Assembly (NCBI GenBank): GCA_002917775.1
Contig: KZ627159.1
Span: 853,253 to 899,625, forward strand
Direction of reading: 5' to 3'
DNA length: 46,373 nt
Origin: Glaciozyma antarctica PI12
Lineage: Eukaryota > Basidiomycota > Microbotryomycetes > Kriegeriales > Camptobasidiaceae
The notes beneath the pieces were generated by a model, which saw only the letters and a list, made by a program, of their open reading frames with translations, did no database searches and was not told the DNA's origin. The number at the start of each line of letters is the position of its first letter. Within the stretch, counting starts at the first letter, position 1. Below are positions 6,746 to 46,373 of the stretch, piece by piece. The translations under genes and the position numbers were made by a program.

Positions 6746-8992
6746 TCACTTCCCAAGACTAACAGAAGCCAACTCCTCACTGATCCCCTCCGCCTCATTC
6801 GCCTTCCTCCTCCTCTCCGCAAGCTCATCATCTTCGTCCAGCAACGTCGCAGCCGAGCTCGCCTCGACTCCCTCCCTCCTCTCCTCATTCTCGTCCCCCT
6901 TCTCCCTGAGGAAGACCACCATCTTGTCCATCGCCGCGTCCATATCGGCTTCTCCAAACTCCTCCGCAAGCTGGCGCAGGATAATGGCCGTGAGCCCAAG
7001 CTTCTCCTTCGAAATCGCACTCGCGTCCGCTTCGAGCTTCGCCAACCACGGCATCGGTCCCTCAAACGCCTTCTTCGCGAGCTTCTTCAGCGCCTTGCGA
7101 TGAGCTTTGTCGGGAATTTCGAAGGGCGAGCCGCGGAGGACGACGCCGAAAAAGACTCCGGCCAGTTCGAACAGCTTGTCGGGCTTGCAATCGGGCGATA
7201 GCAAGCTGCGGAAAGTCGAAGACACGCTCAGGACTAGGAGGAGGTGCAGGGAGGTAGTCGAAGGCATGTAGAAGGGAATCGGCGCTGCGGTGGGAGTCGA
7301 CGGGTCGAAAAGGAAGTAGGGCGTGGAGGACTCGGAGCTGAGGGGTTCGGCGAGCAAGGCGGAGCATCGGCGTGCAAGGGCGGGGGATGGGGAGAGCTGG
7401 AATCGTCCCGAGCTGCAAGATGAGAAAACCGTCAGCGCGTACTCCGTGAGAGAGAGAGGAGAGAGGACGGACGTGTCGTGATGGTACCTCCCCACGAGTT
7501 GCGCCACCAGTGCGAGCGACGTGGGCGAAGGGAGCTCCAGGTGAGGTGGCGGCCTCTTGAGCGGCGGAAGCGCATCTAGCAGCTGAGCCTGCGAAAGTCC
7601 GAACGCCTTCGCGAGCTGCTCGCACATCGCTCGCTCGCACATCGCTCCATCTCCCAGCATGCCCGCCCTCGGATCCCTCTCGGCCTTGACGCTCACCATC
7701 GAGAGCTCGACGAAGAAAGTGGCGACGTCCTTGGCTTCGCGCGTCGCCAGCGCACGATCTCTGACCTCTATCGACGGGTCGCCGGCGGACCCCTGCGTCG
7801 ACAAGAGAACGATCGATCGGCCGCCGGCGTCGATGAAGACCCAGAGAGCGTCGAAGTGCCTGATCTCGTCGAGAATGGCGGTAAGGAGAGGACTATCGTC
7901 GGGTCGGGCAGAGCGAGGGGAGTTGACGGGAGGAGTACGGAGGGCGATAGGAGTGAGAGGCTTGCCGCAGACCGCCTTGTGCGATTTCCAGTCCCTCCTC
8001 TTGGTATTCCCTGCGAAGACAAGGGCTGTTCAATCAAGCGATTCTGGAGAAGTGAAGACAGCCATACCTAGAGCAGTAGCTCACGAACCTGCCGCGAGGC
8101 TCGCAGGCTCCGCACTGCTGCATCTTCTTGCCAGGGGATGCTGAATTCCACTGGTCAGTCAAAGGCAGCGGGGAGCTAGAAAGCAGGTTAAACTCACCCG
8201 CAGTGAAGCAAACCGTGCAGCGTAGCTTGGAGTCGTCGCCCGGCGGAGCACCAGCGAGCTGAGCTCGGCGATGGTCGTTCGGTGAGTGCCGTCCTGGAAC
8301 CGGCAAGTCGCGTCAGCTCAGCAACGGCTAGAAGGAGAAAGGCAGTCCAAATACGAGGACATTGATGCACACATAGGCAAAGATCACGAGAAGCATGTGG
8401 CGGAGAAGAAGGTCGGCCTCCTCGAGAGCTCGCTCAGCTGGAGCCTTCGCGAAGATGTCCTCGACCACGAGATTGGTAGCTTTTTCGAGCGAAGAGTGGC
8501 GGAGGTAAGGGAAATCGGTAGAGTCGGACTTGAGATCAAAGTGGCGAATGAGTTGGAAGAGCCCAATTCCGTCCTGAGCTGAGAGTCGCGCGATGATGAT
8601 CTCCGGGCAGAGCAAGCGGTGACGCATGATGTCCAGCTCGTCTAGTCCTTGGAGGCCAAGCGTCTTTTTGAGGGCCTCAAGAATAACGCTACGACGTGCG
8701 CCGAGGGAGAGGCGAGAGAACTGCTTCGCGTGGTCGAATCCTCCCGCGTCGGTGAACGCGCACGCTCTCCCGATAAGCTGTCCCGTCGCCACAATAACCC
8801 ATCTCAGACGGTTGAGGCGATCGAGACCCGTGTCCCGATCTTCTGAGCGACGAGGGACGGCGCGATGAGACGGAGAGGAGGGCCCGGCGAGAACGTCAGC
8901 CAAGAGTCTCTTCGCCTTCTCGTCCAGCTGCCGATGTCGGAGCGAAAGTCAATCTTGGAAAGCTCCTCGGCGGCTAAGGATAGGGTGACCAT
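6746..8992 (-). CDS. MYND zinc-finger family copy 1 (type I C-terminus), probably damaged
   Basis: The N-terminal module lies at about 8400-8740 (LCPEIIIARL, TDFPYLRHSSLEKA, EEADLLLRH). The finger begins with CTVC (about 8205-8220), continues with QQCGAC and SYCSR, and ends KSHKAVCGK. The type I C-terminus follows (RDRALATREAKDVATFFVEL, then LAKAFGLSQAQLLDALP, LVAQLVG, and STPYFLFDPST after a 75-nt intron at 7413-7487). The likely start is the ATG at 8992, by resemblance to the start of copy 9. The frame changes near 8935, between the first finger pair and QQCGAC, and just before KRRDW. The expected Cys after SYCSR reads as Tyr (EYQ). The role is unknown; MYND fingers usually bind proline-rich partners. 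It is convergent with CAND1, 137 bp away. Confidence 0.7.
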
Positions 8993-10357
8993 GAGGCCAG
9001 GGCGCGCTTAGAAGAGGGCGGCGAGGGGGCTAGTCGGAGGGTGACTCGGAGGGACGGCGGGGAGAGGTCAGCGACGGGTGGAGAAGCTGCAGAAAGTAGA
9101 GAGCTGCCAGTCAGGAAGGATCCTGTATCGTGCGTAGAACGCGCTCGTACGTGGCGGTGAGTGGCTAGGCTTGAGGTCGTCGCTGGGCAGCAGGTCGCAC
9201 TAGCAAGAGTTCGAGCTCGCTGGGGGCAAGCGGGTCAGCTCGGCAGCATCCAGGCAGGAGATGAACGTACGTGTGTAGACTTGGTGAGTCTCTGGGCCAA
9301 GCAGCGATCCGGAGCGAAAGTGGTCGAAGGCAGAGAGACGACGAGCTGGCGCGGACGCAGGTCTTCCTCTCTCCGCTGTGCTTCACCTGCTGCTACGCCG
9401 GTCTATACACACTCACCGCGCCACCAACAGCAGGCCCGACCGGCCCGACCGACGACACTCTCCTCCACCTAACCCAACTCGAACGAGAGCAGCGCGTCCC
9501 CTCCCTCTCCTCCCTGTCCCCAGTCCCCAGTCCCCACCTCCCATCGACCTCGACCTCCCCACCAGTGTTCCTTGTTCGGTAAGGCTCTCTCTCAAGGTCC
9601 TCCTAGCCGCAGGATCGCCATCTTGAGACGGACGTGGGCGAACTGCGTGGAGAGCTTGCCGGCGTCGAGGTGTCAGAGGAGGAGCGGGAGCCGGCTTGCA
9701 ATGGCGAATTGGAGCAGCTTAGAAGGATGTATGATACGAGGCTGTATTCGGACTTGCTTTTGGGGCTCAAGGACCGGCTGGGAAGCGGCTGCAGCTGGGG
9801 GGGCCGGGGAGGGGCGGAGGTGGCAGACGCCAGCTCGCGTTCGCCTTGGACGGTAGAGCTGCCCAGTGCTAGGAGGTCTGCGAGGGATAGGAACTGATCT
9901 ACTGGTGAGCGGGAACAGCTTGAGCCGCTCCAATCGCCTCAGCTCCTCGCCGCCTGCTTCGAATCGCTGCTTGCGCGCCGACCGACTGCTCTCTTCGAAG
10001 AAGCTCCTCCGCACCTTCACCGGCGGCTGCAGCACCTACGCTAGGAAGATCCACACAAGGCGGTGTCGTGGAATGTGCGAGTACGCTAACGGATCTACAG
10101 CCTCGACAGAAGCGCTTCCGCCACGCTCCCCACGATCTGCTCTCCCTTCGCATCCTCTCAGCCTAGGTTCCACTCTCGCCAACTGGCGTGACCTGGCGTC
10201 ACTGTTAGATCTCGCACTGTTCTCTCTCAGCGCGCTTCGACCGCACTCTGCAGCGGCTTCGGCTTCGTCAACAGCCAACTTCCAGTCGCAATGCAGAAAC
10301 AAGCCCTTTCCCCCCTCCTCGCTGATCTCACTCAGCCTTTAAAGGATCCCTTCGCCT
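8993..10357. other. intergenic region between MYND copies 1 and 2
   Basis: About 1.4 kb without a gene I can support. A plus-strand frame at 9634-9897 has a charged, coiled-coil-like start (GELRGELAGVEVSEEE, then LEQLRRMYDTRLYSDLLLGL). It sits after a possible 5' splice site near 9583, so it could be a small unrecognised gene or a relic. The block 9410-9560 is C-rich simple sequence. Nothing else stands out. Confidence 0.35.
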
Positions 10358-11686
10358 CTAATTTATCGTCGTGGTCAGCGAGATAGGGGAAGAGAACGGA
10401 CTCCGAGTGGCTTCAAGTTCCTTCTGCCCCGGCCCTGCCGTCACGTATCAGCTCGCTGCTACACCACGCTTGAGGAAAAGAATCACAAGTACCCGCCTCC
10501 TTCTTCGCAAGGAAATTCCGAGCCCACCACGGCGAATTGGCCTCAGCCTCCTTCATCGCCCTCCTCAACCTGTCCTCGGCAATCTCAAACTCGTTCGACA
10601 ACTGCTTGACGATGAGCGCTTCGGTGCACCAATCTGCCTTGGTCGTACGCATCAAGGTCGCTTCGAAGGCCACGACGACCAAGAGCGCAAAAGCGCCGGC
10701 GTTGACCTCGGCTTTTGTCTCGATCGCTGCCTTCCTGAGCGCCATGATCTCGTCGTGCTATTCCTGCGAAGTGGAGCGCGCCGGGACGCCGATGACGCGC
10801 TCGCGGTAGGGCTGATGATGTGCCACAAAAGTTTGAGGTGGCTGTAGTAGTCGAGGAGTTGACGAACGAGGAAAGGGTTGAGGTGGGAGGAAGGGAGGTC
10901 CGTAGGAGTGTTGTAGAGGGGGACAGTCGAGGATTCGCTGGCAATTTTTCCGCAAGTACCCTTGTGCGAAGGTCGATCGGCGATCTGGCATTGCCTGTTG
11001 CGTGATGCGAGGTCAGCCAAGTCGGGAGATGAGAGAGCGCCACGCACCTCGAACAGCAGCGAGCTTTGCGACCGACGGTGAGGCACTTGCTGCAATAGGA
11101 GAGCTTGCCTGCGCTGTACTGCGAAGCTGTAAGTCGTGAAAGAACGTCAGAGGGTTATGCGAAGGATTCAAGGCGAAGAGAGGGCGCACCCAAGGCCCCG
11201 CACCTCAAGCAGAATCCACTGTGAGGAACGGGCTCTGGTTCCTCCTTCGCCACCGGTCGACGTTGAACGTCGGAGGTCTCTTCCCTCTGCAAGTGACAGG
11301 CGCATCAGCGAAGCGTCTTCGGTTCAACTCGAAAGGGACTCACAATCTCCCTCAGGACGTTGAAAGCAAAATCCATCAAGTAGCCGTGGCGCATCACCAA
11401 TTCAATCTCCTGCAGAGCGCGAACGCTCCTACTCCTCGGCTGGAGAGATCCCTTCTCGTCGACCTCGATCCCGTAAACACGCTCCCACTCCGCATGCCGA
11501 ACGACCGAATAGTGGTCCGGCCGGTCCTCCCGAGGACAGGAGCGCATTAACGAGCTTGAAGAAACCTTCTCCCTCTCCTCCCGCCATGTTCCCCAACCCT
11601 GCCATGTTCCCCAAGCTCAGAGCGCGATTGACGGACGCCCGTTGTCCCAACGCCAAGTGACAGAAAAATACGTCTATGAAATGCAA
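10358..11686 (-). pseudogene. MYND zinc-finger family copy 2 (type II C-terminus), 5'-truncated pseudogene
   Basis: This relic lacks the first part of the N-terminal module. Similarity begins at ALSLGNMAG, about 40-80 bp from the end of the SQR gene (11716). An 18-bp tandem duplication doubles LGNMAG (about 11582-11620). Recognisable blocks are GEGEGFFKLVNAL, then in another frame HYSVVRHAEWERVYGI and LVMRHGYLMDFAFNVL, the finger (CLRC, YCSKC, CCSR, QCQ, SHKGTCGK), and the type II tail with KQLSNEFEIAEDRLRRAMKEAE. There is a frame change between NALL and the HYSVVRHAE block. A second frame change comes after LLWHII, and a TAG lies in frame just before HDEIMALRK. The last exon appears to end at TAG 10358-10360 after an intron with donor GTACTT. 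Confidence 0.75.
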
Positions 11687-11715
11687 TGAACGACAAACAG
11701 CTACGACACACGCGC

Positions 11716-16146: not shown

Positions 16147-17458
16147 ATGTCGGTCAAGGTGTGCTCCAAGTGCTCGAAATCAAGTGAGTGACCTCAACGG
16201 CTACGTTGCGCCGTCCAAAGTTGCCTCGCTAACCTTTTCTCGCTTCGCAGTCGCGCAATTGCGCAAGGCCGACCCTGCGGCGACGCTCTTCTACTGTGGA
16301 GACTGCCTCAAGGTTGAGAGGAAGGTGCTCTATTGCTCAAATTACGCTGCGTTCTTCCTGGTTGCGGGCTCTTCTGACCCCAGCGCCTGCAGGAGCTGTC
16401 AGTCGGCGTCGCGAGCCGTCCACCGATCCCTCTGCGGCATCGCACTCGACCCCTCCCCTTCTTCTACCACCTCGCTCTTATGTCCCTCGTCAATCTCAAC
16501 TACCCCTCGCCGGCACCTTCCCAGCCAACGTTCTCGAGTACATCCACGCCACCGACTCTTTCTGGGCGATCTTGGACTCGGCAGGCGTCGCGCACCCCAT
16601 CAGCAAGGTGCAAGACGGGAAGAGGATACCCGCTGGCAGCATCGAAATGCGTGACATCGCGCTTTCGACGCGCGCGCCCGCCGACGTCGCGAAGTGGCTG
16701 CTTTTTCTGGCTCCCTTCGTCGCGCTGTTGATCGAGAGGCAGGGCCTTACGGTGGGGAACGGGCAGGTGATCGAGCAGCTATGCAAGATCTTCGAAGTTT
16801 CGAAGAAGCAGCTCGTTGAGGCCCTCCCTTTTCTGTTCGGAATCGCCAAGCTCTCTACCTTTCGGCCCTTTGGCGTCGGGTTCGCTCTCGTTTCCCTGCT
16901 CGGCGGTATTATTCGAGCTTGTAAGCGCCCCCCTTTTCTGCCTTCCAAAACTTTTGCTGACTCGCGGTCCTCAGTCCCAACACTCCCAACACCTTCATTC
17001 CTTCTCCGGCCCTCGCCCGCCAGTGCGCTGCCATCGCCGCCGACTACGAAAGCTCGACCGCGTACTTCATCTTTCCCTCCGACCTCTCCGACCTCTCCCA
17101 CCCACCTTTCCCCATTCCTGCCGCGTCTACGCCTGATCCCGATGACCCACAATTCCACGTCAGCGCCTCCCTCTTCACCGCAATCTGCCTTCCGACCTCG
17201 TCAGAACCGCTCGTGGAATTCATCCGCGCGATCACCCTTGCCACGGCGAGCGTATTCCCACTTCGCGGCCTGCGCAAAATCCAGATTGGCCAACTCCGCG
17301 CGGGGCCAGACTGGACACCGGAGGAGTCGACCGAGGTCCAGAACGTGGGCATGTACAGGGAGGCTATCGTGTTATGCGTGATGCAGCAGGCGGTGGAGGA
17401 GTTTGGAGAGGAGTTGGCGGAAGAGGCGTTCATGAGCCTTGGGAGGGAGGAGCCATGA
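16147..17458 (+). CDS. MYND zinc-finger family copy 3 (type I C-terminus, no N-terminal module), probably damaged
   Basis: The ATG at 16147 lies five codons before the first finger pair (MSVKVCSKCSKS), so this copy starts directly at the MYND domain, like copy 7. After an intron (donor GTGAGTGACC) come FYCGDCLKVERKVLYCS and SCQSASRAVHRSLCG. The intron expected inside YCS(K) lacks its donor GT, and the 51 nt up to the CAG near 16391 stay open. The frame changes between the finger and the C-terminal module (about 16440-16510). The type I module is clear: FPANVLEYIHATDSFWAIL, RDIALSTRAPADVAKWLLFL, KKQLVEALPFLF, then PSPALARQCAAIAA after an intron. The end is VEEFGEELAEEAFMSLG, stop 17456-17458. 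The last intron shows a one-base phase mismatch. Confidence 0.65.
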
Positions 17459-17965: not shown

Positions 17966-20114
17966 ATGGCGCCTCGCCCGCGAAAGAAGCACACGAGGAA
18001 GCCCTCCCCCAGGCTCATAGCTAGCCCTCAGCCCATTCCTCTCCCCTCCAGGCCCGACCGAGCGTCGCCAACGCCAACGTCACCTCGCTCGGATCGGGTT
18101 CAGCAGCTCTTCGACCCCTTCGCGCCCATTTCCTTCCACTCCTACAACGGCGGTTTGCGAGCTTGAAACACGGTGTGGGAGAAGCGCCTCGCACGGTACT
18201 ACTCGCCGACGAATCCTCCGACGGTCTCAAACAGCAACGCCCACCAGTTTGCGTTTTACCTCGACGAGCAGCAATTCCAGCAGCGAGCCTGCGGGAGAGA
18301 TCATCTCGGAATTCTCGCTTGCCAGCTTCTAGCTCAGGTGATTGAGTGCGGAGGGATGGAGGAAGGTGTAGCGAGGCGCTGGAGGGCGAAGAGCCGGGTT
18401 GAGCGGGAGGAGATGATTCTAGCGGCTCTAGCGAGGACGCATGGAGGAACGAGCGAGCTAGATATCGAGCACGACGCTCACAACAGGGAAACCGCGCCCG
18501 AAATCACGCTGGAGAACCTCGCAGGGAACGACGGCGAGGGATTCATCAAGCTCGTTCAGGACCTCTTTCCCGACCCCAACTCCACCGACTCCTTCTCCAT
18601 CGTCCGCCATGCCGACTTTGAGCGCATCTACGGCTTTCAGCTGGACACGGACGCGCTCGTCCCGAGGAGCAAGATCATCCGCGCGTTCCAGGAGGAGCAC
18701 TTCCTTATTCGCCACTCCTACCTCCTGAACGTCTGTTCCACAGTGCTGAAGGCCATCGTAAGTCTATTTCCCTGATTTGCGTACTTTACGTGACACGCGC
18801 TGACAACGTCGCGCAGATCTCGAACCGTTTGCCTGCCAGGCGCTCCGCCTCGTCCGCGTTTACGCCGGCTGCACCCAAAACCGCCGAGAACGCTCCCATA
18901 TTTGCCTCTCAGAACTCTCCCGAGGAGATACGGCGTCACAACGAGTTGACCGAGTGGGCAGTTTTCGAAACTTGCACGAATTGCGGAATGTCGGGTGGGT
19001 CGTTCGTTCGGTCATTCGCTCGCTACCCAGATCAGCTGATACCGCATCCTGACAGCGAGCACGTTGCCTTCTCGCAAGCTTCTCTTCTGCGGAAAGTGCT
19101 CCAATATCGGTCGCAAGGTCCCTTACTGCTCAAGGTGCGCCTCGCCTTCTCTCGCTGCCCGTTCAACCGCTGACGGCCTCCTGCAGAAGCTGTCAAGTCG
19201 TCCACTTCCCCTCGCACAAGACATCTTGCGGCCAGCTCATCAGCCAAACGTCTTCTATCCCTATCTTCGACTCGTTCCCCTCGCGTGCGCCTTCAAAGCT
19301 CAACACCCACCTCACACACCAAGTCAGCTACCTCAAGACGCGTGAGAACTGCATCTGGGGCCTTTATCGCCCTGCCATCAGAATGTTCGGTCTAGGATCG
19401 TACTCGCTGTCACGCGCCGACCACGAGAAGCTCTTCGCGATTTGAGCGAAGGCGATCGAGACGAGGGACGATCTCGCGGTCGGGCAGCTCGCGGTGCTGG
19501 TCCTGATGATATTGCGGGAGATGCTGGCGGTGGACGACTGGCAGGGGAAGGGGATGCTGGAAGGCTATGAGGAGCACGAGGCGATCGAGCAGCTTGCGCG
19601 GGAGTTCGAGACGACGGCGGAGGAGATTGAAGCGCGTATCGAGCGAGCCGAAGGAGACCTCCCGGAATGGATCAACGCGGCCAGGGTTTCCAGCGAGGGG
19701 AGGATGCGAGTTATATTTTAGATCTAGTTCGTGATTGAACGCTGACTCGCGCTCGACCTTGCAGCAGGAAGGAGAAGGCTGATCTCGACATTATGGCTCT
19801 CAGCGAGGAACGCAAGAAGGAGCTCATCAACGAAGGTCGCTTCACCGACGCCATTCCAGGACTCTTCAACGAGAAGTTCTATGAAGGCGACGAGGCCGAG
19901 GGATTGCCGATTTTCGCCAAGTACGTGATGAACTTCGCGTGCCTCGGGTGAGTGCTCTCACCACCGCGTCCCTCGGCTTGCTCTGAAGTGCTTGCGGCGC
20001 AGGAACGAAGGTGGTGATTCGGAGGAGGTGCAGTTCGCGAGGCTCGTGAAGGCTGCGACAGCGGCTGGTATGTTTGTGGAGGAGGAGGGGGAGGGGAAGG
20101 AAAAAGGGCAGTGA
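17966..20114 (+). pseudogene. MYND zinc-finger family copy 4 (type II C-terminus), nearly full length, two in-frame TGA
   Basis: This copy best shows the whole type II layout. The N-terminus (MAPRPRKKHTRK) leads to YNGGLRA and VWEKRLARYYSP. The N-terminal module has EREEMILAALARTHGG, PEITLENLAGNDGEGFIKL and SIVRHADFERIYGF. Intron 18758-18816 follows, then CTNC, intron 18995-19055, FCGKCSNIGRKVPYCS, intron 19135-19186, and SCQVVHFPSHKTSCG. The tail has QLAREFETTAEEIEARIERAEG and a last part ending FVEEEGEGKEKGQ at TGA 20112-20114. TGA at 18164-18166 stands where copy 5 has Trp (RAWN). TGA at 19443-19445 stands where copies 2, 5 and 6 have Arg. The junction near 19700 also lacks a clean donor. 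A shortened or read-through product cannot be excluded. Confidence 0.75.
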
Positions 20115-24958: not shown

Positions 24959-25669
24959 CTGGTCGTGGGAGTGGTGTGACGAGGTGAGTTGTGCTGGCGG
25001 AGACGTGGAGCTGGAGCTGACCTGGTTCCTGCAGGAGGATGCAGTAGAGCTGCTGTATTACAAGAGTATCCGGGCGTACTTCTGTGCCGTATACGCAGGT
25101 TGAGGAACTGCTAGCGTCTTGCTCCTCTCCTCTCGACCTCCCCTCAGCTCAACCAGCTCCACCTTCCGACCCACGATTTCTCCAGCCGCACAACTCAACC
25201 ACACCGGTCCTTTAGTCCTGAACTCAGCCGATGGTTCACACTCATCTAAGAACGAACCCCGACACGATCTTCCCGCCTCGCCCTATTCTCCGTCCGCAAT
25301 CTCGAGGTTGTCGAGACGATCGTTCCTCCTGCGCCCGCTGCGATGGCGATGGCACGGACTCTCCATCAGCAGAACGCGTGAGTTTATCGCTGCGTTGCGG
25401 AGACGAAGACCTGACGACTTTCAAGCACGACTCTCGTTATCGCGACGTAGCTAGCACCTTGTTGGAAAGCACGAACGACCAGCGAAGCACGATGGTGGAG
25501 CTGCATGGACGAACGCAATCAACGAATCGACATTGGCATCTCGCCTACTGGCTCCGAACTTCGAGCTTCGACATTCGCTCCTCCGTGTTCCCTATCTGCT
25601 TCGAATATCTCAGCTCCTATGTAGCCAACTCCGGGCGGGAAAAAAAAAAAAACTCACCTTCAAGCCGCT
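24959..25669. other. intergenic region with a 13-A run
   Basis: About 710 bp between OST5 and the convergent MYND copy 5. Open frames here lack any recognisable domain. A run of 13 A lies at 25640-25652, just past the stop codon of copy 5 (as T13 in its own direction). Confidence 0.45.
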
Positions 25670-27380
25670 GCGACCCTCAAGTCAAGCTTTGCGACGCCTT
25701 CCTCCAGCTCCGCCGTCTCCTGCCTTGGTGTCGCTTCCCTCGATTCAACTCGCCTCCCCTCCTCCATCAACTCCATCTCCTCGGGTTCCTCCCTGCGCCT
25801 CATCAGCTCCTCTCCTTCGTTCCAAACCAAGCGCACTCACTTTCTCTCCCTCGCAAACTCGCAGAACTCCGCCAACCACCTCGGCATCTCCCTCCCCGCC
25901 ATCTCGACAACTCGCCGCATCCCTCCCTCCTCCATCCCAAACTCCCTTCTCAACTGCCTTCTCACCGCCCCGTCCTCCATCCCCAACAACCTCGCAGCCA
26001 ACTCCACCGCCATCACGACGCACCCAATCGCGTACTCCTCCCTCTCGTGAATCGCCCGGTCCCGCAACGCGAACGCCTCGGCTTTCTCCTCCGCATCACG
26101 GAACGCCGGGCCAACGAAGATCGTTTCGGCCGCTGCGTGCGGCGGGAAAAGAGCCCAGAGCGCGTTGGGATCTTGAGCGGGGAGGTGGTGCTGTCGGAGG
26201 AGGAAAGGTGGGAGGGAGGCGGTGGGGAAAGAGGAAGTCGAGAGGAGGGGGAGGGGAGAGGAGAAGGGAGTGCCGCAGATGGATTTGTGGATTGGGTAGT
26301 GCAGCTTTTGGCATGTCCTATGCGGGAGTCAGTGGGAGTGAGAGGAGAGAGAGGGGGACGGACGGGGAGCAGTAGGGGACTCGGCGGTTGACAAGGAGGC
26401 AGTTGCTGCAGTACTGCAGGCGGTGAGTGAGGGAGAGGCGATGAGGTTGCACTAGAGACCGATGGTCAGTTTGCGTCGTTCAGTGCGAAAGAGGAGAACG
26501 GACTGGGGTCGCATGGCATGCCGTGCACCTCTCCACGGCGTCCTTTGCGTGAACCGCTGTGATGTACTCGATTTCGGGAGCCGCTCCAGTTAAGTAGATA
26601 GGTGAGATGTCGATAGGAGGAGCTCCGCGTGTTGGTCGCACCATGCCGGCTTCCTGCGACGAGGCGTGAGCGTGTTGCGAAGCGAGAGTCGAGCAAAGGA
26701 CTAACGAGGTTCTTCAGGACTTCGAAAACAAAGTGGAAGAGGAATTTGTGCCTGCGAAGGAGCTGCTTCTCCTGCCAAGCACGGAGACTGCTCCTCGGCA
26801 AGCTCGCTTCGGCGTCGTCAACGGGGAATCCATGCGCTCGTTCGAAGGCGGAGTTCCGGACGACCGAGTACTCGCGCTGTCGTTCCAGGCATGGCATCAA
26901 ACCGTCGACGAGCTTGAGGAACCCATCCCCACCTCCACCCGCCATCCCCTCAAGCGTAACCTCTGGCGCGAGCAACCGATCAGTTCCCTCCACCTCGGAG
27001 CTTCCCTCCGCCAGGTCCTCCAACACCTCGACGACAATCTCCTCCCTCTCCTCGCTCTTGAGGCTTCCCCACCGCTCCGCGTACGTCTCCTCGTCCACAA
27101 CGCAGAATACGACCCGCGTGAAGAGGTTCCAAGACTGGCTGCAGAGAACCTCGCTTCTCGCAAGCCGCTCGTCAGCGGCGCGATCGCTGGTAATGCCGCT
27201 GTCTTCGGGGGAGCTTGTGTTGGGAACTAGCAGAGGTGCGTCTTCGTGGTAGACGTAGGCGAGTTTCGCTTCCCATGCCGCGTTCCAAGCTCGAACGTTA
27301 CCGTCGTAGCGGGGCAGCGAGGGGTGAAGGTGGTCGGGAGCCGGTGGCGACAGCTCCGGCGAGAGATGCAGTGAGCTCAT
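25670..27380 (-). CDS. MYND zinc-finger family copy 5 (type II C-terminus), best-preserved type II copy
   Basis: The ATG at 27380 gives MSSLHLSPELSPPAPDHLHP, then RYDGNVRAWNAAWEAKLAYV. The N-terminal module has EEREEIVVEVLEDLAEGSSE, PEVTLEGMAGGGGDGFLKLV, YSVVRNSAFERAHGF and LLRRHKFLFHFVFEVLKNL. Intron 26655-26705 leads to the linker and the first finger pair CTAC. After a second intron come LQYCSNCLLVNRRVPYCS, then CQKLHYPIHKSICG. The tail carries LRDRAIHEREEYAIGCVV, RREFGMEEGGMRRVVEMAGR and, after a 52-nt intron, an acidic end (EEPEEMELMEEGRR) up to TGA 25670-25672. The only problem is a one-base phase mismatch across the first finger intron. An alternative acceptor 32 nt downstream would keep frame but shorten the finger. 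I see no in-frame stops. Confidence 0.75.
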
Positions 27381-27856: not shown

Positions 27857-29530
27857 TTAGCCGGGGTTCTTGAGGCGTAGTCCCCACTCGTCGTTGATCA
27901 TCCCGCGCGAAACGAGGTCCTTCTCGCGCTCTTCCTCGCGCTCCTCATATTTGCGACTGCAACGGAGTCAGGTGTAGCCCCCGCGCAAGAAGAGAAATGG
28001 AACGCACACGTCGAGATCCACGTCGGTAACGAACTTAAAAAGCCACCCCGGCAAGTTCCCCTTCGCGAGCCGCATCGCCTTTTCGAGCTCCTCCGTCGTC
28101 ATCTCGAACTCCCTCCCGAGCTGCGCCATAATCTCCTTGTTCCCCATCCTCCTCACCATCTCCTGTGCTACCCCCCTCAACCCGGCGGCCATGTGCTGGA
28201 CCGGAGCGGCCGCAACGACGAGAGCGGCGAGGCACCCGATCGAGTACTCGTCCTTCTCGTAGACCGCGCGCTTGCGAATCTCGAGCATCTCCTTTCGCTC
28301 CTCGCAATCGCTCGAGGGGAAGTTGGGTCCGACGAAGAGGAGCTGGTCCTTCCAGAGGAGCGCCCAGGTGGCGATGTCGTCCTGCGCGAGACTTTGCATT
28401 TGGCGGAGGAGGAAGGGGTTCAGGTTCGAGGTGGGGGGGTAGTTGTTGTGGAGAGGAAGGTCGAGGTTTTTGGAGAGAGGCTTGCCGCAGAGACGCTTGT
28501 GGAAGGGGAAGTGGCGTTTCTGGCACTCGCTGCGACACCGTGTCAGCGAAAGGTAGACGAGCGAAAGGAGCGAAACTCACGCCGAGCGGTACGGAACCCT
28601 GCGGCCAATCTTAAGGCACTTGCTGCAGAACTGGAGCTTGGCCGTGTAGATTCTCGCGGAAGGACGAGATGCATTACGAGATCGTCAGGAGTCGTTTTCT
28701 GACGGTGAATCGAAAAGGAACGCACTCCGTGACTCGCAAGCTGAGCAGATCTCGATCCCGAGTGATCCGGGAGCGCTGCGAGCAGCGTTGAAGTTCTTGT
28801 GGCTCTAACCGATAACCGCTCGCTGCGACGAAGGGGGCGCTCTTCGCCGACGCCGGCCCTGCTCCGCCAAAAGCGCGAGGCGTCCGGTCGCGCTTTCTCT
28901 GCTGTTGTTAAATAGGGTCTCGTCAGCTTGGAGCTCGTAAGAAGTGGCGTTGAGCTTACCAGTCGTCGCAGCACGCTGAGCACGAAACCTTGGAGGTAAT
29001 GGAGGTATGAGTGTCGAATGATGAGCTCCTCGTCTTGACAGGCGCGAATAACCTTGCTGAGAGGGACGAAGTCTTCGGAGTCGTCCGGACGAAAGGCATG
29101 GACGCGTTCGTAGGCGGCGTTGCGAACGATGGAGTATCCGTCGGGGCTATCTTGACTCGGGAGGAGCGCTGTAATGAGCGCGATGAAGCCGTCTCCCCTC
29201 CCTCCCGCCAAGTTCGCAAGCGTAATCTCAGGAACCGTCGTCCGATTCCTGCTCTCCCACAGTCGCTCGAATTCGGTCGTCCCTCCATGGATCCTCGCCA
29301 GTACCTCGAGCACCATCTCCTCCCTCTCCCGCACCGTCTTTTCGCGCCACAGCTCAACGTACGTCTTTTCGTCGGGCGAAGACCACGCCGTGAGCTCGAA
29401 TAGGTCCCACGCTCCCGAAAAGAGGGCCTTGCGCCCCTCCTCGCGCGAGTTGAAGGCGAATTCGTCGAGATGGCGGGCTTCGAACTGCGCAGCAGCCCTC
29501 TCGGTGATGCGCGGTGGCGAATTGGGAGCG
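27857..29530 (-). CDS. MYND zinc-finger family copy 6 (type II C-terminus), altered finger and unclear 5' end
   Basis: The N-terminal module is clear (REREEMVLEVLARIHGGTTE, PEITLANLAGGRGDGFIALI, YSIVRNAAYERVHAF, IIRHSYLHYLQGF). Its first part is cut short: the text related to copy 4 begins at NCYAPNSPP directly after a run of ten A (T10 at 29537-29546, plus strand), preceded by a CAG acceptor-like site. The finger reads CSAC, FCSKCLKIGRRVPYRS, ECQKRHFPFHKRLCG; the Cys expected in YCS is Arg. The tail has EIRKRAVYEKDEYSIGCLAA, GREFEMTTEELEKAMRLAKG and a last exon RKYEEREEEREKDLV, stop TAA 27857-27859. One finger intron shows a one-base phase mismatch. It may be a damaged copy or start at an internal ATG. 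Confidence 0.65.
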
Positions 29531-29621
29531 TAGCAGTTTTTTTTTTCTGGGTTAAAGAGCCAACACTAGAGCGGCAGCGAGGACAGGACCAAGGTGTGCG
29601 TTTGGATTCCTGAGGTTCTCG

Positions 29622-31471
29622 TCAGCTAGGCTGAAGAGAAACCTCAGGCGACGTCGACTTCGAAGCTACCTCCCACGGTCTGCTTGAGAGTCCCCGCCAC
29701 TCGGGGCAGCTATCGACCGGCCTCCCATCCTCCCTCTCCGTAGGCAAAGGGCGCAGTCCTTGCACGGTCCCTTTGTTCCTCCGCCGGGGCCCTCGCGATC
29801 TGTCAATTCTCAAGCCCGCGCAGGCCGATTTCAAGCTACTCACCAAATAACGAGTCCAAAGGTCATCAATGCAAGCAGAACGGCCCTGCTTGAAGGGATT
29901 GCAAAGCTCGTTGGGAGCGGCGCTGGACCTCTCGCTCACCGAGCATCGCACTCGTCGACCCGCGTGATTTTTTGCACCTCCGACACGTAAATACGAAGAG
30001 CATCCCTCCAGAAGCGTATCCACCTCGGCCGCTTCGTCCCTCCTCCTCACCTCGCGCCACGCCTCGCGCACAAGCTCCCTCCCAAACTCCTTCTCCAGCT
30101 CCATGAACACCTCCCTGAAAAGCGCAGGCACGTCTCCCAATCCTGTCCAGGAACCGTTCGACCCAACTTCGCGCTTAAAAGTCGCCCTGAAAAGCGCAGG
30201 AGTGGACCCTGGCATCCTGTTCCACGGTTCATCCGCCTCGACCCTGCGCTTCTCAGCCTCCTCCGCCGACTTCTCAAGCGCCGACAAAGCTGCGAGATCG
30301 TGCGAGCTCCGACGAATAAAAGGTCGGCCGCTCTTGATGGTGTGGAGGACGGAGGGGAGGAGGCTGGAGAGGAAGGTGCGAGGCTCGCTGAGGGACATGG
30401 CGAGGATGGTGTGAATGTGCGCAATGTCCTCGATCCACTCCATATCGGTCGGCGTAATTTTGCGCTGATGATCTCGCCTCGGGAAGGAGAGGAGGGGGAT
30501 AGGGAGGGCTTTGGGATCGTCAGATTCGAAGAGGAAGAAGGGAATCATTGAAAGAGAGGCGGGGGAGTTTGCACGGCTGATTGCTCGGCATTGGCGTGCG
30601 AGGGCGGTAGAGGCGGTGACGATGCGAGGTGATGTAGGATTGCCGCTGCAAGTGTATCCCAGGTTTCGTCAGGAAGAATCGAAAGGTGCAAAGCGGACTA
30701 CGCACGGGTTAGAGAGCAGACCCCCGAGTTGAGAGACGAACGCGAACACATCACCCGTGGCCGCGCCGGTCACGATCTCCTCTATCGATGGCAGCGCCTG
30801 AATAAGCTCGTCCTCCGAGATATCGGATGCCCTCTCCAGCTGGCACTGCAAGCTGAGCAACGGATCTCCGAATTCGCTCCAAGAGAAGTTCTGCCCTTGG
30901 TGATCGGTGCAAGGCTCGCTCATCGCCATTTATATGAGCGGGCAGAGACGAACGAAGAACCAGGCGACATCGGCGGTAGCGTACGTCGCCAGCGCGCGAT
31001 CTCGAGCCTCCTTCGCCAGCTTAATCGTTGGGTCGCTCGAGGTGTCGCCGACGGTGGCCAGCCTGGCGAGCGCGCCCTCGGCGGTGGAGATTGCCCACAG
31101 AGACTTGTGAGGAGTGATGTAGTCGAGGATACTCGAGAGGAAGGGGTTGCTGGGCGGAGGAGTCGGGGCTGCCGGCGAGCTGCCGCAGGAAGGCTTGTGC
31201 GCACGCCAGCCCTTGCGCTGGCAGTTCCTGCGCACGCCAGCGGTCAGTCAAGGTACGCACGACGGGTTAGAAGAACTGGCGTACTCGGAGCAGTACAGCG
31301 CGTGGTGACCCCGGCCTTGAGGCAGCGAGCACAGCGCAACAGCTTCGCGTTCGGATTCGCGAGACGAAGCTCCTGGACTGGAGAGTGGCTCCGTCAGCGG
31401 CGTCTTCCGGTGGGCAGAGCGGACTTACTGGAGCGACTACAGCACGCACAGAGCTGAGGAGCTGAAGCCAT
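29622..31471 (-). pseudogene. MYND zinc-finger family copy 7 (type I C-terminus, no N-terminal module)
   Basis: The ATG at 31471 gives MASAPQLCACCSRSS, so the gene opens at the finger as in copy 3. After the first intron come NAKLLRCARCLKAG and, one base out of frame, HHALYCSE. The next exon has NCQRKGWRAHKPSCG. The type I part follows: NPFLSSILDYITPHKSLWAI, ARDRALATYATADVAWFFVR, and LCPLI, then an in-frame TAA at 30930-30932. Beyond it the frame continues with DISEDELIQALPSIEEI, FVSQLGGLLSNP, an intron, TALARQCRAISRA and ELEKEFGRELVREAWREV. Family members normally end near there (about 29990), but here the frame runs on to 29622. The frame change and the stop suggest a decayed copy. Confidence 0.7.
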
Positions 31472-31670: not shown

Positions 31671-33821
31671 TCACGCCTGCTTCGCTACCTCGCCCCCTCC
31701 CTCCACCGCGTTTCGCACCACCTCCGTCCCAAACGCCTCCTCCAGCTCAGCGCAAACACTCTCAAAAAGCAGCGATTTTACTCTTCCCACCCCAACGTCC
31801 CACCTCGTGCCCTCGTCCCTCTCCTTCTTCGCCTCAATCGCCACCGACGCCCACAGCGCAACGATATCCTCCTCGCTCCGTCCCTCAAACGACCAGCCCT
31901 GCTTTACACTGTGCAAAAGCTGCACGAGAAGCTTGTAAATCCACTTTCGAGGGTCGGACAGCGCGGCCATGTAGTAGCGCACGATGTGGAGCGCGTTTCG
32001 GACCTTCTGCCCGTTCTCGCCAGAGAGGTGCACGGTGTCGTCGTCGCTTGTGGGTGCGATGTAGGTGAAGAGAGGGATGGGTCGTACGTCGAGGAAGGGG
32101 GAGGTGAAGAGGAAGTAGGGAGATGAGGGCGTGTGGAGCCGAGTTCGAGCCAGCGCGTGACATTGTCGGGCGTGAGGAATGGAGGGAGTGAGAGTGCGAG
32201 GTGTCGGAGGAGAGGTACTGGGGGGAGCAGTAAAATTAATGGGGAGTGAGTGCGAGAGTTGAGAACCTACGCACGGGTTGGAGAGAACGCCACCGAGTTG
32301 AGAAATGATCGTGAGCGCCGTCCAGAGGTCCCGGTCCTCGATGGCGTCCATCGCCGGCAGCTCCGCGACAAGATCCTCCTCCGATATCGAAAAAGCTTGC
32401 CCGAGCTGAGCCAAAATGCCTTCATCCATCTCCGGCAACGGTTCCTCAGCAAGCTCAATGGTGGGGCAGAGCTGAAGGAAGAAGCGCGCGACGTCGACTG
32501 GACTACGCGTCGCCAACGCTTGATCGCGAGCCGGCGCGGCGGGGTCGTTTATTGCCAGGCCGTAAAAGATGCTGCTCAGGCGTCCGCCACTGGTGACGAT
32601 GACCCAGAGGCACTTGTCACGGCTGACGATGCCGGTGATGACGGAGAGGAGGGTTCGAGGCGTGCAGGGGGTAGAGATGGCTTCGCTGGAGGACGGAGAG
32701 AAGACGGGAGTTGGGACGAGAGGGGCAAGGGCCTTGCCGTAGGTGACTTTGTGCGTTCGTCGCGCCGCAAGCTGGCATTCCCTGGAACACGGGTCAGAGG
32801 TAGGTCCACGGGCTTGAAGGAGGAAGTAAGAACGTACCTTGAGCAGTAAGGAACCACCCGGCCTATCGTACGGCACGTCGCGCAGTTGCGGAGCTTGCGA
32901 ACGTCGTTTGAGGCGCGAAGTCGAATCTCTGGGAGCAAAGCTCGGTCGGCTATCGCTGGGAGAAGAGTCGCGGAAGCGCACCTAAAACACCGCAATCATC
33001 GCAGGACTTGAAGTGACGAGTAAGCGCTTCTGCTGACGAGGCGCCGTTGGACTCCCCGCCGAGCAAGAACCGTTCTTCTTGAAGCATCACTTCCTGGTAT
33101 CCGTCCTGACGTTCAGGAAATCAGCTTGAGCTGGTCGTGTTCTGAGCGGTGTGCGTACCAGATTGGAGAGAACGCGCAGGGAGAACTCCACCAGGATCGT
33201 GTGGCGCCAAAGCAGGTCGTGCTCTTGACGCTCTCGCGCGTACCGAGATCTCGGAAAGTCCTCCTCCATGACCCAGCCACAGGCCTTCTCGATGCCAGCG
33301 TGTCGAAGATAGGGAAAGTCGGTGTCGGCGGCGTCGACGAGGAAATGCGAAGCGAGTTCGAAGAAGCCTTCGCCGCTCCCAGCGGTGAGCGCCTCGAGCT
33401 CGAGCTCAGGACAGAGAAGGCGACCGCTAGTGGATTCCACTTCTACTGCTCCTCCCCTCAGCATCACGTTCCGGAGCGCTGCAAGCACCGTCTCCTCCCG
33501 CTCCGCCTTCGAAAGCCTGGCAAACTTGATCGCGTGGTCCCTGCCAATGCCGCCTTCCTGGCCACGCGCAAGTACTTGAGAGGTGACGGCAGAGGAGCAC
33601 GATCACTTTGCGCGTCTTAGTACGCCACGCGATGGAGTCCTCGTCGAGGATATCCAAGAGGTCGGTGGGAGAGGGAGGCGGGCTGGGACGGCGCGGTCAG
33701 TCGCGAGCAACCGCTGGATGAGAAGCTCGGCGTTGTCGTTCCATTCGCGAGCGTCGGTGAGAAAGTCTGTAGAGTACTACGGCCTGACTCTGCGACGGCG
33801 AGACAGCTGGCGAGAGGTCAT
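31671..33821 (-). pseudogene. MYND zinc-finger family copy 8 (type I C-terminus), complete layout but broken N-terminus and finger
   Basis: The ATG at 33821 (MTSRQLSRRRR) is followed in the same frame by a TAG at 33777-33779, then TDFLTDAREWNDNAELLIQR. The N-terminal module shows KAEREETVLAALRNVMLRGG, LCPELELEALTAGSGEGFFE and TDFPYLRHAGIEKACGW, but needs two frame changes upstream of it. One of these could be a very short (29-nt) intron. From the finger on, all junctions keep frame: CDDC, intron, NCATCRTIGRVVPYCS, intron, RECQLAARRTHKVTYG. The last finger Cys is Tyr, and the usual aromatic after CQ is missing. The type I part is the best in the window (RDQALATRSPVDVARFFLQL, IIAQLGGVLSNP-like text, SSPYFLFTSPF), ending at TGA 31671-31673. 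Confidence 0.7.
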
Positions 33822-41191: not shown

Positions 41192-42111
41192 CCTGCCTGT
41201 AAGTGTGGACATGCTGCTGCGATCTGCTGAGGCTGCTGTGGATGGCTGAGGGACGAGGTGGCGAGGGGGAGTCTGGAGGGAGGTGGCAAGAGACACCGCC
41301 GGTCGTCTTCCGCTGTGTTCAGGTCGTTCTCCCTCAGCTTTCCACGGAGACTTTTCCTAGTTCTCCGACAGCTACCAGAGCCAGGGCGGTCGACCAAGTC
41401 ACTCGAGTCAAAATCGCAGCTGCCCTTGAGCCTCGCGTCGCGACGGGTTGGCCAGGGCTCGCTCACCTCGCTCCTCGTTGTCCTCCTGCTCGTTTACTCT
41501 GTTATACTTCAGATTCATTAGAGGTCCACTTCCAAAGCTACATCGTACCGAACACCAACCTCACCCGAAGTCTCACCCGAAGCCGTTCGCTCGCCCTCAA
41601 GCCGAGCGTCGGTCTTCCTTCTGCCATCACCTCGTCGTAACCGCCGCCGCCACCGCCACTACTCCAGCATCTCGTAGCGCCTACGCGGGCTTATCGCACC
41701 GCCCTCCTCCCACCGACGCTCACCACAGGTCGAGGATCCATAAGCGCGGCGCCAAGTTCCTCCGCCCTCGATGCCTGCCACGACACGATCGTGAGTCGTT
41801 TCTCCAGATCAAGGAGGACACGGAGAGGATACGGGGGGTCTCTGTGTATCAGGCTGGCGGCTGTTCCGCTTCACCGCTGGCAGTGTTCCGGAGCTGACAC
41901 CTTCTCTTCTATCACAGCGGTGCTGCCCCTCCTTCCTCTGGAAACGGTCGATCAAGCTTCAAGAAGCGCGGTGTCAAGTTCCTAAGGGCCCTGGTTCCCG
42001 GCGTCGCTCGTCCGTGAGTGGACTCTTCCCGCTTACCCCACACGGACGTGCGGAGGATGGAGGATTGGTGGAGCTCGTACGGTTGGGCGGGAGCTGTCGG
42101 GGCTAGTCTCG
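41192..42111. other. region between Argonaute and the second F-box gene
   Basis: About 920 bp upstream of both divergent genes. Plus-strand sequence at 41740-41780 (HKRGAKFLRP) and 41955-42000 (FKKRGVKFLRALVPGVA) encodes two similar short basic stretches. These could be 5' exons of the F-box gene or a small duplication. I could not build a convincing exon chain. Confidence 0.35.
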
Positions 42112-42189
42112 ATGGGCCAGGATGAAGCTTCAGATACGACTGGACTCTGCTCTCTCCCTCACACACCTCTCGAGACTCCACCCAAGCTG

Positions 42190-43250
42190 ATCCACGTCCC
42201 CGCCGATCCAGCACAGCACCGCCTCCCTCCTCGACCCACGTCTACGCCCCCAGTCTCCCCCCCGAGGTCGTCTTTCACATCCTCTCGTTCGGAACAGCAC
42301 CATCTTCAACAGGCGAACTCCCCCTCGCCGCCACGTACGACTTTCTCACCACCGCCGCCCGCATCTCCCGCTGCTGGACCGCACCCTCGCAGTCCCTCCT
42401 CTGGGAGCACATCGACCTTCCTTCTCAATCTCAGGCGAGAAAGTGGGTACGGAGTGAGGCGCAGGGGAGGTGGAAGACGGCGGGCTTGGCGATGGGACCT
42501 GGTGAGGGCAAGGCGAGGGCTTGGAACGATGGGCTGGTCAAGACGGTGCTGGAGCGGACCGAGGAGCTTGATACGCTGTGCCTGAGGCGAGTTGAGATGG
42601 ATCCCGAGGTGCTCTCGCTACCGAACCTTTGTCGTGCGTCGTTCCTCTTCCATTCCCCTCGAGTTTCGCAGCTAACGACGACGACGACCGAGCAGACCTC
42701 TCGACGCTGTACCTTCGCTCCGCCGTCCTCTACTCCCCTACCTCGACCCCCACGACGTCACTCCTTCAAACTCACCACCGTAAGTCTCCACTGGGCGTCC
42801 CTCCCTCCTTCCCTCCTCCACTCCCTCCTCTCCACCTCTCTCCCCTCTCTCCGTTCCCTCACTTTCCAATCCTCTCACAACCTCATCTCCTTCTCCCGAT
42901 CCACTATCGCCCTCTTCCCCCTCCTCTTTCCGAACCTCACTTCCCTCTCCCTCTCAGCCGATTGTCGTCCCCTCTTCCCTCTCCTGCCGACCGCGACGTC
43001 GTTACTCCGATTATCGTTCGGGTACTTCCTCACGGACCATGTCATCGTCCAAGTGCTCGAATCGCTGCATGCGCCTTTAGAGGTGGTGGAATTGGAGGAC
43101 CCGAGGAAGTTGGGAGTGCTCGGGAGGTGTTTGGGAGTACCGGGGTTGAAGAGGTTGAAGGCGGTCGAGTTGGGGTGGAGGGGGAGGAAGGAGGGGATGG
43201 GAGAGAGCGAGGTGTGTAGGGAGAGGGGAGTCGAGGTGCAGTGGTCGTAG
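42190..43250 (+). CDS. F-box/LRR-like protein, start not resolved
   Basis: An F-box begins at about 42262 (SLPPEVVFHILSFG, then DFLTTAARISRCWTAPSQSL, LWEHIDL), so the product likely recruits a substrate to an SCF ligase. Downstream come ERTEELDTLCLRRVEMDPEV and LSLPNL, an intron with donor GTGCGT near 42632, and leucine-rich text (LSTLYLRSAVLYSP; SLPSLRSLTFQSSHNLISF; FPNLTSLSLSADC; SFGYFLTDHVIVQVLESLH). The C-terminus is EVCRERGVEVQWS, stop at 43248-43250. The start lies upstream in another exon or is lost: the ATG at 42112 is in a different frame from the F-box. The short exon around 42690-42780 also needs a frame change to join the last part. Confidence 0.7.
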
Positions 43251-43511: not shown

Positions 43512-44067
43512 TTACACGATCGTTCCATCTACCACCAGCTCCCTGATCCTTTTGATCGACCCCTCCACCCCAGCTCCAACCTTCGCGTTCAGCGCCTGAG
43601 GACTCAGATCATCCCCCGGCGCGACCATGGGGAGTCCATTCGCAAAGCTGTACGTGAGGAATAGCTCGCCCTTCTCGTTGTACGAGACGAGGTTGATGAT
43701 CCTGAACCCAGCTTCGTGCTCAAAGTAGACCTGCGCAAGGGCTCAGCAGTGAGAAGAGGGAGGAGAGGGAGAGGAACGCACGATCGACTCGGCGTGAGAC
43801 TCGATAAGCTCCGTCTTGAATGGCCCGTCTCCGAACCTCACTCTGCGCTCAATCTGCTTCCCGTCAGCTCCCAATTCCTCCGCAGCACGCGTGAAGACGC
43901 ACCTTGTTCCCCTCATCCTTGACAAGCTCGCAAGCAGTGATCGTTGGCACGAACGTCTGCGGCTTGCGTGCTTTGATATCGAGTCCGGCCCAGACCTGCG
44001 CAGCGGTGAGGATGGGAGTGGCACCGGGAGGGTTGATGAGGCGGCTGGCGGCGAAAGCAGGAGCCAT
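43512..44067 (-). CDS. DUF1857/AtaL-like SRPBCC-fold protein
   Basis: The ATG at 44067 gives MAPAFAASRLINPPGATPIL, then TAAQVWAGLDIKARKPQTFV and PTITACELVKDEGNK. Two short introns follow (donors GTGCGT) before RRVRFGDGPFKTELIESHAE and VYFEHEAGFRIINLVSYNEK, GELFLTYSF. The end is GSIKRIRELVVDGTIV, stop TAA 43512-43514. The 'NPPG.TP.LT..QVW.GL..KAR.P..FVP.I..C' pattern is that of the fungal DUF1857 (AtaL-like) family, a START/SRPBCC-type small-molecule-binding fold of unsettled function. Length and frame are normal, so the gene looks intact. Confidence 0.85.
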
Positions 44068-44705
44068 GCTGTCGGAGATGGGGCGGCGAGGGGAAGCTGG
44101 GTGTGGTGTGGTTAAAAGTGGAGCTTCGTGGCGGTAGGTTCAGCTGCTAAGGACGGCCTTCGCAGAGTTCGTGGAGAGCTGGAGACAGACCGGTCGTCAG
44201 CAGGAGCTCCGAGTGGCCGAGATGGACGACTCCGAGGTGGAGCAGGCGCCTCTGGGACCGCAGGCTCAGCGAGCTCCAGCGTGTAGCTAGTCCACTCGGT
44301 TTGTGCAGCGCCCACCCAGAACGAACGTGAGGGACTCACGTTCAGAGGGTGACAGCGAGGTCGCGACGTCGCCAACTTGGACGGAGGTCTCCAACTAAGC
44401 GTGTAGAGTAAGCTGGCGGAGGTGGCTGCGGTTTGGCGGAGAGCTTCTGCTGGGAAGGCGTGGATTCGGCGACGCGGGAGGTGTGGCAGGGTGTGGCGGA
44501 GGGCGGGAGAGGTCAAGACGGCATCACGACCAATGCTCCTCTTGTCCTCCGCAGACTCGCTCCCTTCGCTCGTCTGTGTCGCCTAGCTACGCTCGTGAGT
44601 TCAAGCAGACCTCTTGCATACCGCAGAGCGAAGGACCAACGCCTCGGGCAAAGGCTGAAGCTCGTTGGCGACGCTGACTCCCTCTCTCCAGCTCCAGACG
44701 CGCTC
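44068..44705. other. intergenic region upstream of MYND copy 9
   Basis: About 640 bp between divergent genes. The plus-strand frame of copy 9 stays open back to about 44433 with an in-frame ATG there, so a longer N-terminus is possible. That extension shows no resemblance to other copies. Confidence 0.4.
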
Positions 44706-46373
44706 ATGCTGCCACTCGACGCCAAGGCAGACCCTCGCTTTCGAAGCTTGAACGAGAACATCGAGTCTTACATCGTGAACGCGCTCGCCGAGGCCTCCAG
44801 CCGTCCCTTCCGACCAGCCAAAAACCCTCCTCACATCCTCGCCACCGGCCTTACCGAATCCCATATCGCCTGCCGATTGCATGGAAGAAGAACAGTCGTT
44901 GAGAACTCGCAGATCATCAAGCTCGTGCTCGAGAGTAGCCAGCTCAGCGGATTCGACCTCGAAACGCAGTACGCTCAGCGGACGCAGGCCGAGCGCGAGG
45001 TCGTCGTCCTCGAAGCGCTTAGGATCACGATATTCATCAGCGGAGACGCCAGGAAGCACGCCGCTGTTGCCCGTGGTTTTTGTCCCGAGATTTCTCTCGA
45101 GGTGCTCACCGCCGGGCGTGGAGAAGGTCTCTCTGAGCTTATCAAGCACTTTTTGCGGTGTGATGCAGCGACCGACCTCCTCTACCTGCGGCACGGTGGA
45201 CTGGAGCACTTGCATGGATGGGTCATGGAGGATGACATTCCGAGATCTCGAGGCGAGCGTGCTTTGCAGGAGGGCGCGCTGCTTAATCGCCACCGACTTC
45301 TGAGCACCTTTGTTTTGAACGCGCTGTGGCTGCTGGTGGGGTCCGCTGTGACAGTTCATCGACTGAGCTGATGCATTCCTACGCACGGAACGGTCACAAG
45401 ACGCCTCTTCCTCGAGACTGGGACGACTTGGATGATTCCGAGGACCTTCCAAACGACGCGTGCCACTTCTGCAATATCTCCCGTGCGCGTTCGCTCCCAG
45501 CTATCGTTATTTCTCGCTAACTATAAGTGCTCTTATTCCAGAAACTACGCTTCTGCAAGGCCTCCGCCAAGCTCCTTCACTGCGGCAAGTGCTTCGCGAA
45601 GGGGAGGAAAGTGTCGTACTGCTCAAAGTTCGCCGACTTCTGCTCGCTCACCACGTCTGCACCTCTGACTGTCGACATTTCTCGTCTGCAGGTATTGCCA
45701 GAAGAAGGATTGGAGCTCGCACAAGATCACTTGCGGCAAGGAGCTCGCTCTCGTTGTCGACACTCCCGTCTTCTCCTCCCTCGCGTCCACTTCTCCTAAT
45801 CCGTCGCCTCCTCGAAAACGAAAATCAGAACATCCTCGCTTTCATCCACATGCATGGAAGCGCCTGGGCCGTCATCGATATCTACGGCAATCCTTTCGGG
45901 ACCAGCAGCCGCGGAGACATGCCTAACATTGACCAGATGGTCTTCCGGCCGAAGACCAGCCGAGCAGCAGCTCTCTCGACCCGCAAGCTCTCCGACGTCG
46001 CCACATTCTTCGTCCTTCCTTCCCCACTGATGGAAATTGTCCTCGAGCTTTCGTCGGCGGTGCCGCAGCGCTCGACACCCACTCGTCAGCCGACCAAATT
46101 TCAGGACGGCGCTCTCCTCATTCAGCTGGCGAGGGCGTTCGAGATGGAGAAGGACGACTTCATCAATTCGCTCCCTTCTCTCGCTGAGCTTCTGGCGCAC
46201 GATGGCGCAGATGCTCGGGACTTTGTCGGACTTGTTGCTCAGCTCGGTGGAACGTACTCAAGCCAGTGAGGGCCATCCATCACTCCGTTCTGATACTACT
46301 GCTGACTCGAGATTCGCAGCCCCAACACCTTCATCCCCTCCCCAGCCCTCGCACGCCAATGCGCCGCCCTCGC
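44706..46373 (+). CDS. MYND zinc-finger family copy 9 (type I C-terminus), cut by the window edge
   Basis: The ATG at 44706 gives MLPLDAKADPRFRSLNENIE, similar to the start of copy 1. The N-terminal module has AEREVVVLEALRI, FCPEISLEVLTAGRGEGLSE, TDLLYLRHGGLEHLHGWVME and ALLNRHRLLSTFVLNALWLL. Then come HSYARNGHKTPLPRDWDD and the first finger pair CHFC, an intron with donor GTGCGC, LLHCGKCFAKGRKVSYCS, an intron with donor GTTCGC, and YCQKKDWSSHKITCG with all expected ligands. The type I part follows (PNIDQMVFRP, STRKLSDVATFFVLPSPLME, LARAFEMEKDDFINSLPSL, FVGLVAQLGGTY), an intron, and PNTFIPSPALARQCAAL at the edge. The linker intron would be only about 32 nt, the first finger intron fits best with a weak AAG acceptor, and the frame shifts between the finger and the type I part. 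Confidence 0.75.

Follow-up and report, generated by a model that had tools for sequence, protein, structure and literature searches.

An old and dispersed MYND-finger family with two Pfam-unmatched flanking modules, and its dense positional cluster in Glaciozyma antarctica PI12

The stretch of DNA analysed here (46,373 nucleotides, hereafter the window) covers positions 853,253-899,625 of the 959,274-base contig C14 of Glaciozyma antarctica PI12, whose 20 Mb genome is assembled in 18 contigs. It has a GC content of about 60%, and the introns in its gene models are of the GT-AG type with a median length of 55 bases. The genome is fungal: two fatty-acid synthase beta fragments have fungal-type FAS beta chains as their best PDB matches, and a search for phenylalanine ammonia-lyase (PF00221) found none. 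Combining a self-comparison of the open reading frames with spliced models and finger exons read by hand, we found nine related, intron-rich loci with a MYND-type finger, labelled c1-c9. All-versus-all comparison of the window open frames of at least 40 residues grouped exons of an N-terminal module (N-module) for seven loci and exons of the finger or of a C-terminal module (C-module) for all nine. The initial gene finder fused genes and was therefore retuned and then guided by homology; the retuned and homology-guided model sets disagree in places, and the model end points and small exons given below are uncertain.

The common layout is an N-module followed by the finger and the C-module. The C-module is found in all nine window loci, with two invariant columns (Leu and Trp), and its form separates two subfamilies: it is short in subfamily A (c2, c4, c5 and c6) and longer in subfamily B (c1, c3, c7, c8 and c9), with a second lobe read in c1, c3, c7 and c8. 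The A/B split is also seen on the N-module tree with a support of 95/98, while c3 and c7, for which an N-module was not found, are placed in B by the C-module alone. The preliminary description of this DNA had credited nine members with the full three-part layout; the nine loci are real, but the N-module is present in only seven of them.

Four of the nine window fingers read as intact. Three of these belong to subfamily A, namely c2 (10332..11616, minus strand; second half of the N-module seen, short C-module), c4 (17966..20114, plus strand) and c5 (25660..27380, minus strand), the latter two with both flanking modules. The fourth, subfamily B locus c9 (44412..46269, plus strand), has an N-module and the first lobe of the C-module; the frame changes 3' of its finger, where either a weak intron or a break may apply, and the gene may extend beyond the window edge. 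The remaining five fingers have lost a ligand, the frame or a splice donor. In c1 (6746..8948, minus strand; N-module at 8355-8720 in the model, finger at about 7960-8258, two-lobed C-module) the finger frame is broken and ligand Cys6 is replaced by Tyr. Locus c6 (27857..29728, minus strand, both modules present) carries Arg for ligand Cys5, c8 (31671..33821, minus strand, with N-module and two-lobed C-module) carries Tyr for the last ligand, Cys8, and in c7 (29840..31471, minus strand) the frame is broken within the finger. Finally, c3 (16147..17458, plus strand) has all finger ligand residues, with a finger intron that has no GT donor, keeps the frame open and reads as an insertion; this intron, at about 16342-16392, looks as if it had turned coding. 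The frame breaks in the window fingers may be assembly errors.

It had been proposed that the copies sit in both orientations between housekeeping genes. Both strands are indeed used, but c5, c6, c7 and c8 adjoin one another, as do c3 and c4. A and B neighbours stand side by side on the same strand three times (c1-c2, c3-c4 and c6-c7). The other genes that we could name encode a CAND1/TIP120-like protein (2037-6500), a pyridine-nucleotide-disulphide oxidoreductase (11716-13542) that we take to be SQR-like, a Ras-like GTPase (22755-24261), Ost5 (24597-24958), a SPRY-LisH-CTLH protein (34989-36909), an F-box-like protein just below the Pfam cut-off (42057-43250) and an AtaL-domain protein (43512-44067). 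An Argonaute gene with ArgoN, ArgoL1 and Piwi domains (37053-41191) lies inside the cluster; a second Piwi-domain locus is found about 11 kb to the left of the window, and the source genome holds six Piwi matches, on C14, C6 and C8. At the left edge of the window (1-615), overlapping open frames repeat each other over short stretches with 57-100% identity, forming a coding-like tandem repeat.

The N-modules are conserved at the protein level, both within the window and across contigs. The seven window copies give the consensus EREE.VLEAL...PEI.LE.L..G.G.GF...VRHA..ER..G...DD....PRS...RA.QE..LL.RH..L. Among 48 pairs of N-modules without stops, drawn from inside and outside the window and sharing at least 80 codons at 33% identity or more, differences are smallest at codon position 2 (0.40), intermediate at position 1 (0.45) and largest at position 3 (0.60). 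The seven window N-modules contain no stops in 994 codons, which at the local stop rate has a chance probability of about 3e-10, a rough figure given that the N-module rows were first chosen from open frames. Since there is both a codon-position bias and an absence of stops, the similarity of the N-modules goes beyond chance. The N-module is predicted to be all-helical in a low-confidence AlphaFold model. The models of the two flanking modules were built from window-only alignments and are both weak (pLDDT 59.5 and 47.1), and in the C-module alignment the first row includes about 19 residues translated from an in-frame intron; a Foldseek search of the PDB with both models found no fold match with an E of 0.001 or lower, which carries little information given such low-confidence models.

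What marks the family is its finger, in which nine residues separate zinc ligands 4 and 5. We read the finger in 22 loci, the nine in the window and 13 of the 17 outside (L025-L035, c0 and c10). With a pattern that fixed the spacing, the finger head with nine residues was found in 18 of the 22, the exceptions being c7, L029, L034 and c0; L029 has Gly for Cys5 at unchanged spacing, and c0 has one residue more. In seven other MYND-type loci of the source genome (an eighth, L008, was left out), the spacing read by eye is five residues in L001, L002, L004, L006 and L007 and seven in L003 and L005. The finger tail was found, by a pattern that required the Gln of the peptide-binding pair, in 20 of 22 loci; four positions further on, eight of these 20 tails carry Trp, five Phe or Tyr, six Arg and one His. 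Outside the window the tail pattern is seen in 12 of 13 loci, c0 having the head part and no tail, and most of these fingers keep their ligands in head and tail, although in some the first Cys pair could not be placed. At C9:686116, at the edge of L028, a C-module was modelled and no finger was seen.

According to the preliminary description the finger pattern was directly seen in the DNA. Single-frame finger patterns caught no full finger in the window because introns split it; the finger exons were read in spliced models or by hand. In a six-frame Pfam scan of the genome there are 31 zf-MYND matches, none of them on C14. Of the window models, c3, c4, c5, c6 and c8 were submitted to Pfam, with c1, c2, c7 and c9 left out: spliced c4, c5 and c8 score over the zf-MYND cut-off and c6 below it (20.4 against 22.7 bits), while the c3 model as submitted has no Pfam MYND match. 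All five family models from outside the window that were scanned are over the cut-off. The six-frame matches concentrate on C15 at 578-911 kb (11 of 31) and on C5 at 83-307 kb (5 of 31); the C15 loci that were read (L002, L006 and L007) have the five-residue spacing and no match to the family proteins, and are perhaps a second MYND group.

Counting and mapping the members, as had been suggested at the outset, yielded in the source genome 26 family loci on eight contigs and one dense cluster. The loci come from single-protein genome searches (matches at E 0.001 or better, merged by hand) and are distributed as 11 on C14, three each on C9, C10 and C11, two each on C1 and C8, and one each on C3 and C5. 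Automatic merging gave 25, with neighbours in the cluster fused, and four weaker matches of the automatic listing, C12 and C16 among them, were left out of the 26; the totals are minimum counts, and the family has at least 26 loci. Both modules are present in 19 loci, counting second-module matches up to E 0.1, the C-module only in four (c3, c7, c10 and C9:686116) and the N-module only in three (C1:224121, C9:128304 and C10:1103926). Ten loci lie within 43.5 kb (C14, 860.8-904.3 kb), i.e. the nine in the window and c10, 4 kb past its right edge. When 25 loci were placed at random in 20,000 trials, no 45 kb held more than four; the positional clustering is real. We also observed that, with neighbours counted once, 8 of 14 family positions are no more than 135 kb from a contig end, and 12 of 14 no more than 225 kb (binomial 0.009 and 0.0007, with cut-offs picked after seeing the data, and contig ends need not be telomeres).

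The cluster had been taken for a striking local expansion, a claim that found no support, given that the family is dispersed over 26 loci and the window copies are not one another's nearest kin. The N-module tree has 19 rows, seven from the window and 12 from elsewhere; a stop, entered as X, occurs in four of the rows. On this tree the window label needs seven changes, a number equalled or undercut in all 500 of 500 shuffles. The closest rows of window copies include loci on C10, C11 and at C14:760 kb. The tree has long end branches (median 0.88), and strong support is limited to two of its 16 inner branches, so that little weight can be put on individual pairings. A recent tandem array or local burst is rejected, as the window copies interleave on the tree with loci from other contigs. 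Assembly duplication, which the preliminary description had named as an outcome that would undo its proposal, is ruled out, since the modules are about 16-50% identical to each other. What can safely be concluded is an old dispersed family with one dense positional cluster.

The layout had been said to match no named family, and for the flanking modules this is supported by the Pfam-A and PDB searches. In five window and five outside models, zf-MYND is the sole Pfam-A family over the cut-off and neither flanking module has a Pfam-A match over it; at E 1, these ten models add sub-threshold matches to other zinc fingers and to short segments. Against PDB sequences, the N-module has no relative (three chance-level matches, the best at E 0.77) and the C-module has no match at E 10. 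Searched against viral and prokaryote contigs, the c4 N-module likewise had no relative, which is uninformative on fungi. The same ten models contain no catalytic Pfam domain, no SET domain match at E 1 or better and no Pfam match to the Mss51 C-terminal domain. Mss51 carries that C-terminal domain, so identity with Mss51 is rejected, and the lack of a SET domain rules out SMYD.

Comparison with known MYND proteins sets the family apart in several respects. Its finger is of the eight-ligand zf-MYND type (PF01753), with four of the nine window copies reading as intact, and the scores of members exceed or approach the curated cut-off; unlike zf-MYND, the family has a spacing of nine rather than five to seven residues from ligand 4 to ligand 5, a finger coded across introns and two Pfam-unmatched flanking modules. 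The best PDB match of the c4 finger is the DEAF-1 MYND domain (PDB 4a24, 2jw6), which shares its ligand order and has a CQ....H...CGQ tail; however, the match is weak (E 0.4), the DEAF-1 loop is shorter, and the family models scanned contain no SAND domain. In BS69/ZMYND11, too, a helical module, described as serving dimerisation and peptide binding, lies ahead of the MYND finger, but the N-module has no detectable PDB homology and the family models scanned have no chromatin-reader domain. With SMYD methyltransferases and Mss51 the family shares a MYND finger within a larger protein, and it differs from them in that its models lack SET or any other Pfam domain over the cut-off.

What these proteins might do is suggested by characterised fingers. 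DEAF-1, ETO and BS69 have MYND fingers that bind co-repressor or PXLXP peptides, contacts being made by a Gln and a Trp four residues later (PMC3555993, PMC4742278), namely Gln529 and W533 in DEAF-1 (PMC3555993) and Q546 and W550 in BS69 (PMC4742278). By analogy, we tentatively suggest, at somewhat less than even confidence, that the family members are modular intracellular adaptors whose finger would grip short proline-containing peptides. In such proteins the MYND-type finger with its longer ligand 4-5 loop would hold peptides on partner proteins in the manner of DEAF-1, ETO and BS69, the two flanking modules would dimerise or bind additional partners, and copies without a ligand or an N-module would have their binding changed or be losing it. 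We favour an adaptor with a partly diversified peptide grip because the Gln tail is kept in 20 of 22 loci while the second contact position varies. Protein-level conservation of the N-module, the Gln tails, the nine-residue spacing and the absence of a catalytic Pfam domain all count for this role. On the other side, the longer loop may alter the binding surface, and the two weak AlphaFold models without a PDB fold match count against the adaptor role as far as models of that quality can. Not every copy can bind peptides, because 7 of the 20 tails lack Trp, Phe or Tyr and 5 of the 9 window fingers are altered.

These altered fingers, two of them altered by frame breaks, bear on the main alternative, a birth-and-death family in slow decay in which some copies are functional and many, above all in the cluster, are pseudogenes or nearly so, with dead copies persisting in the cluster. 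The strict Cys/His head-plus-tail pattern points the same way, being found in 5 of 9 window loci (c2, c3, c4, c5 and c9) as compared with 10 of 13 outside, and several six-frame matches elsewhere contain a stop codon, with three at C9:686116 (these may be introns, and the spliced model at that locus is open). However, the N-modules of the window are free of stops and biased by codon position, most of the outside fingers that were read retain their head and tail ligands, and the frame breaks could be artefacts of assembly. We regard decay as rather unlikely.

Less probable again, and in our estimate improbable, is that this is a known MYND family under another name, for instance a general fungal one widespread in Basidiomycota. 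Published tallies do report numerous zf-MYND proteins in some Agaricomycetes and in Rhodotorula (PMC4469406, PMC10662464, PMC2644716). Microbotryum lychnidis-dioicae has 7, Sporobolomyces roseus 11 and Rhodotorula glutinis 26 (PMC4469406); two Microbotryum parents have 7 each (PMC7499883); R. sphaerocarpa has 7, where Rhodotorula averages 24.7 with a standard deviation of 15.1 (PMC10662464); and for Moniliophthora perniciosa the tally is 25 gene models (PMC2644716). A high MYND copy number in Rhodotorula-type yeasts is thus already known, as a domain tally. However, zf-MYND is all that Pfam-A returns over the cut-off for the ten models, the seven other MYND-type loci of the source genome lack the nine-residue spacing, and our search of the open-access literature, which found the zf-MYND tallies, found no description of the N-module/finger/C-module layout.

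A more elaborate version of the adaptor reading, in which A and B form an undescribed two-subfamily system, diversified over scattered sites close to contig ends, whose genes tend to adjoin, whose products are partners and whose fingers read variable sets of peptides, strikes us as very unlikely. A link to RNA silencing is less credible still and hardly to be expected: it is prompted by the Argonaute gene at 37053-41191 and the Piwi matches at C14:841967-842791, but it rests on neighbourhood where most other named neighbours are unrelated housekeeping genes, the six Piwi matches are confined to C14, C6 and C8 while the family is on eight contigs, and the Piwi match on C8 is more than 300 kb from the family loci of that contig.

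Beyond the domain tallies, what is new is that one old family, marked by two undescribed modules and its own finger signature, accounts for at least 26 loci of one genome. A six-frame Pfam scan misses the window members because introns split the finger. The signature and modules provide an annotation tag, and the loci a defined gene set for deletion, expression and partner studies.
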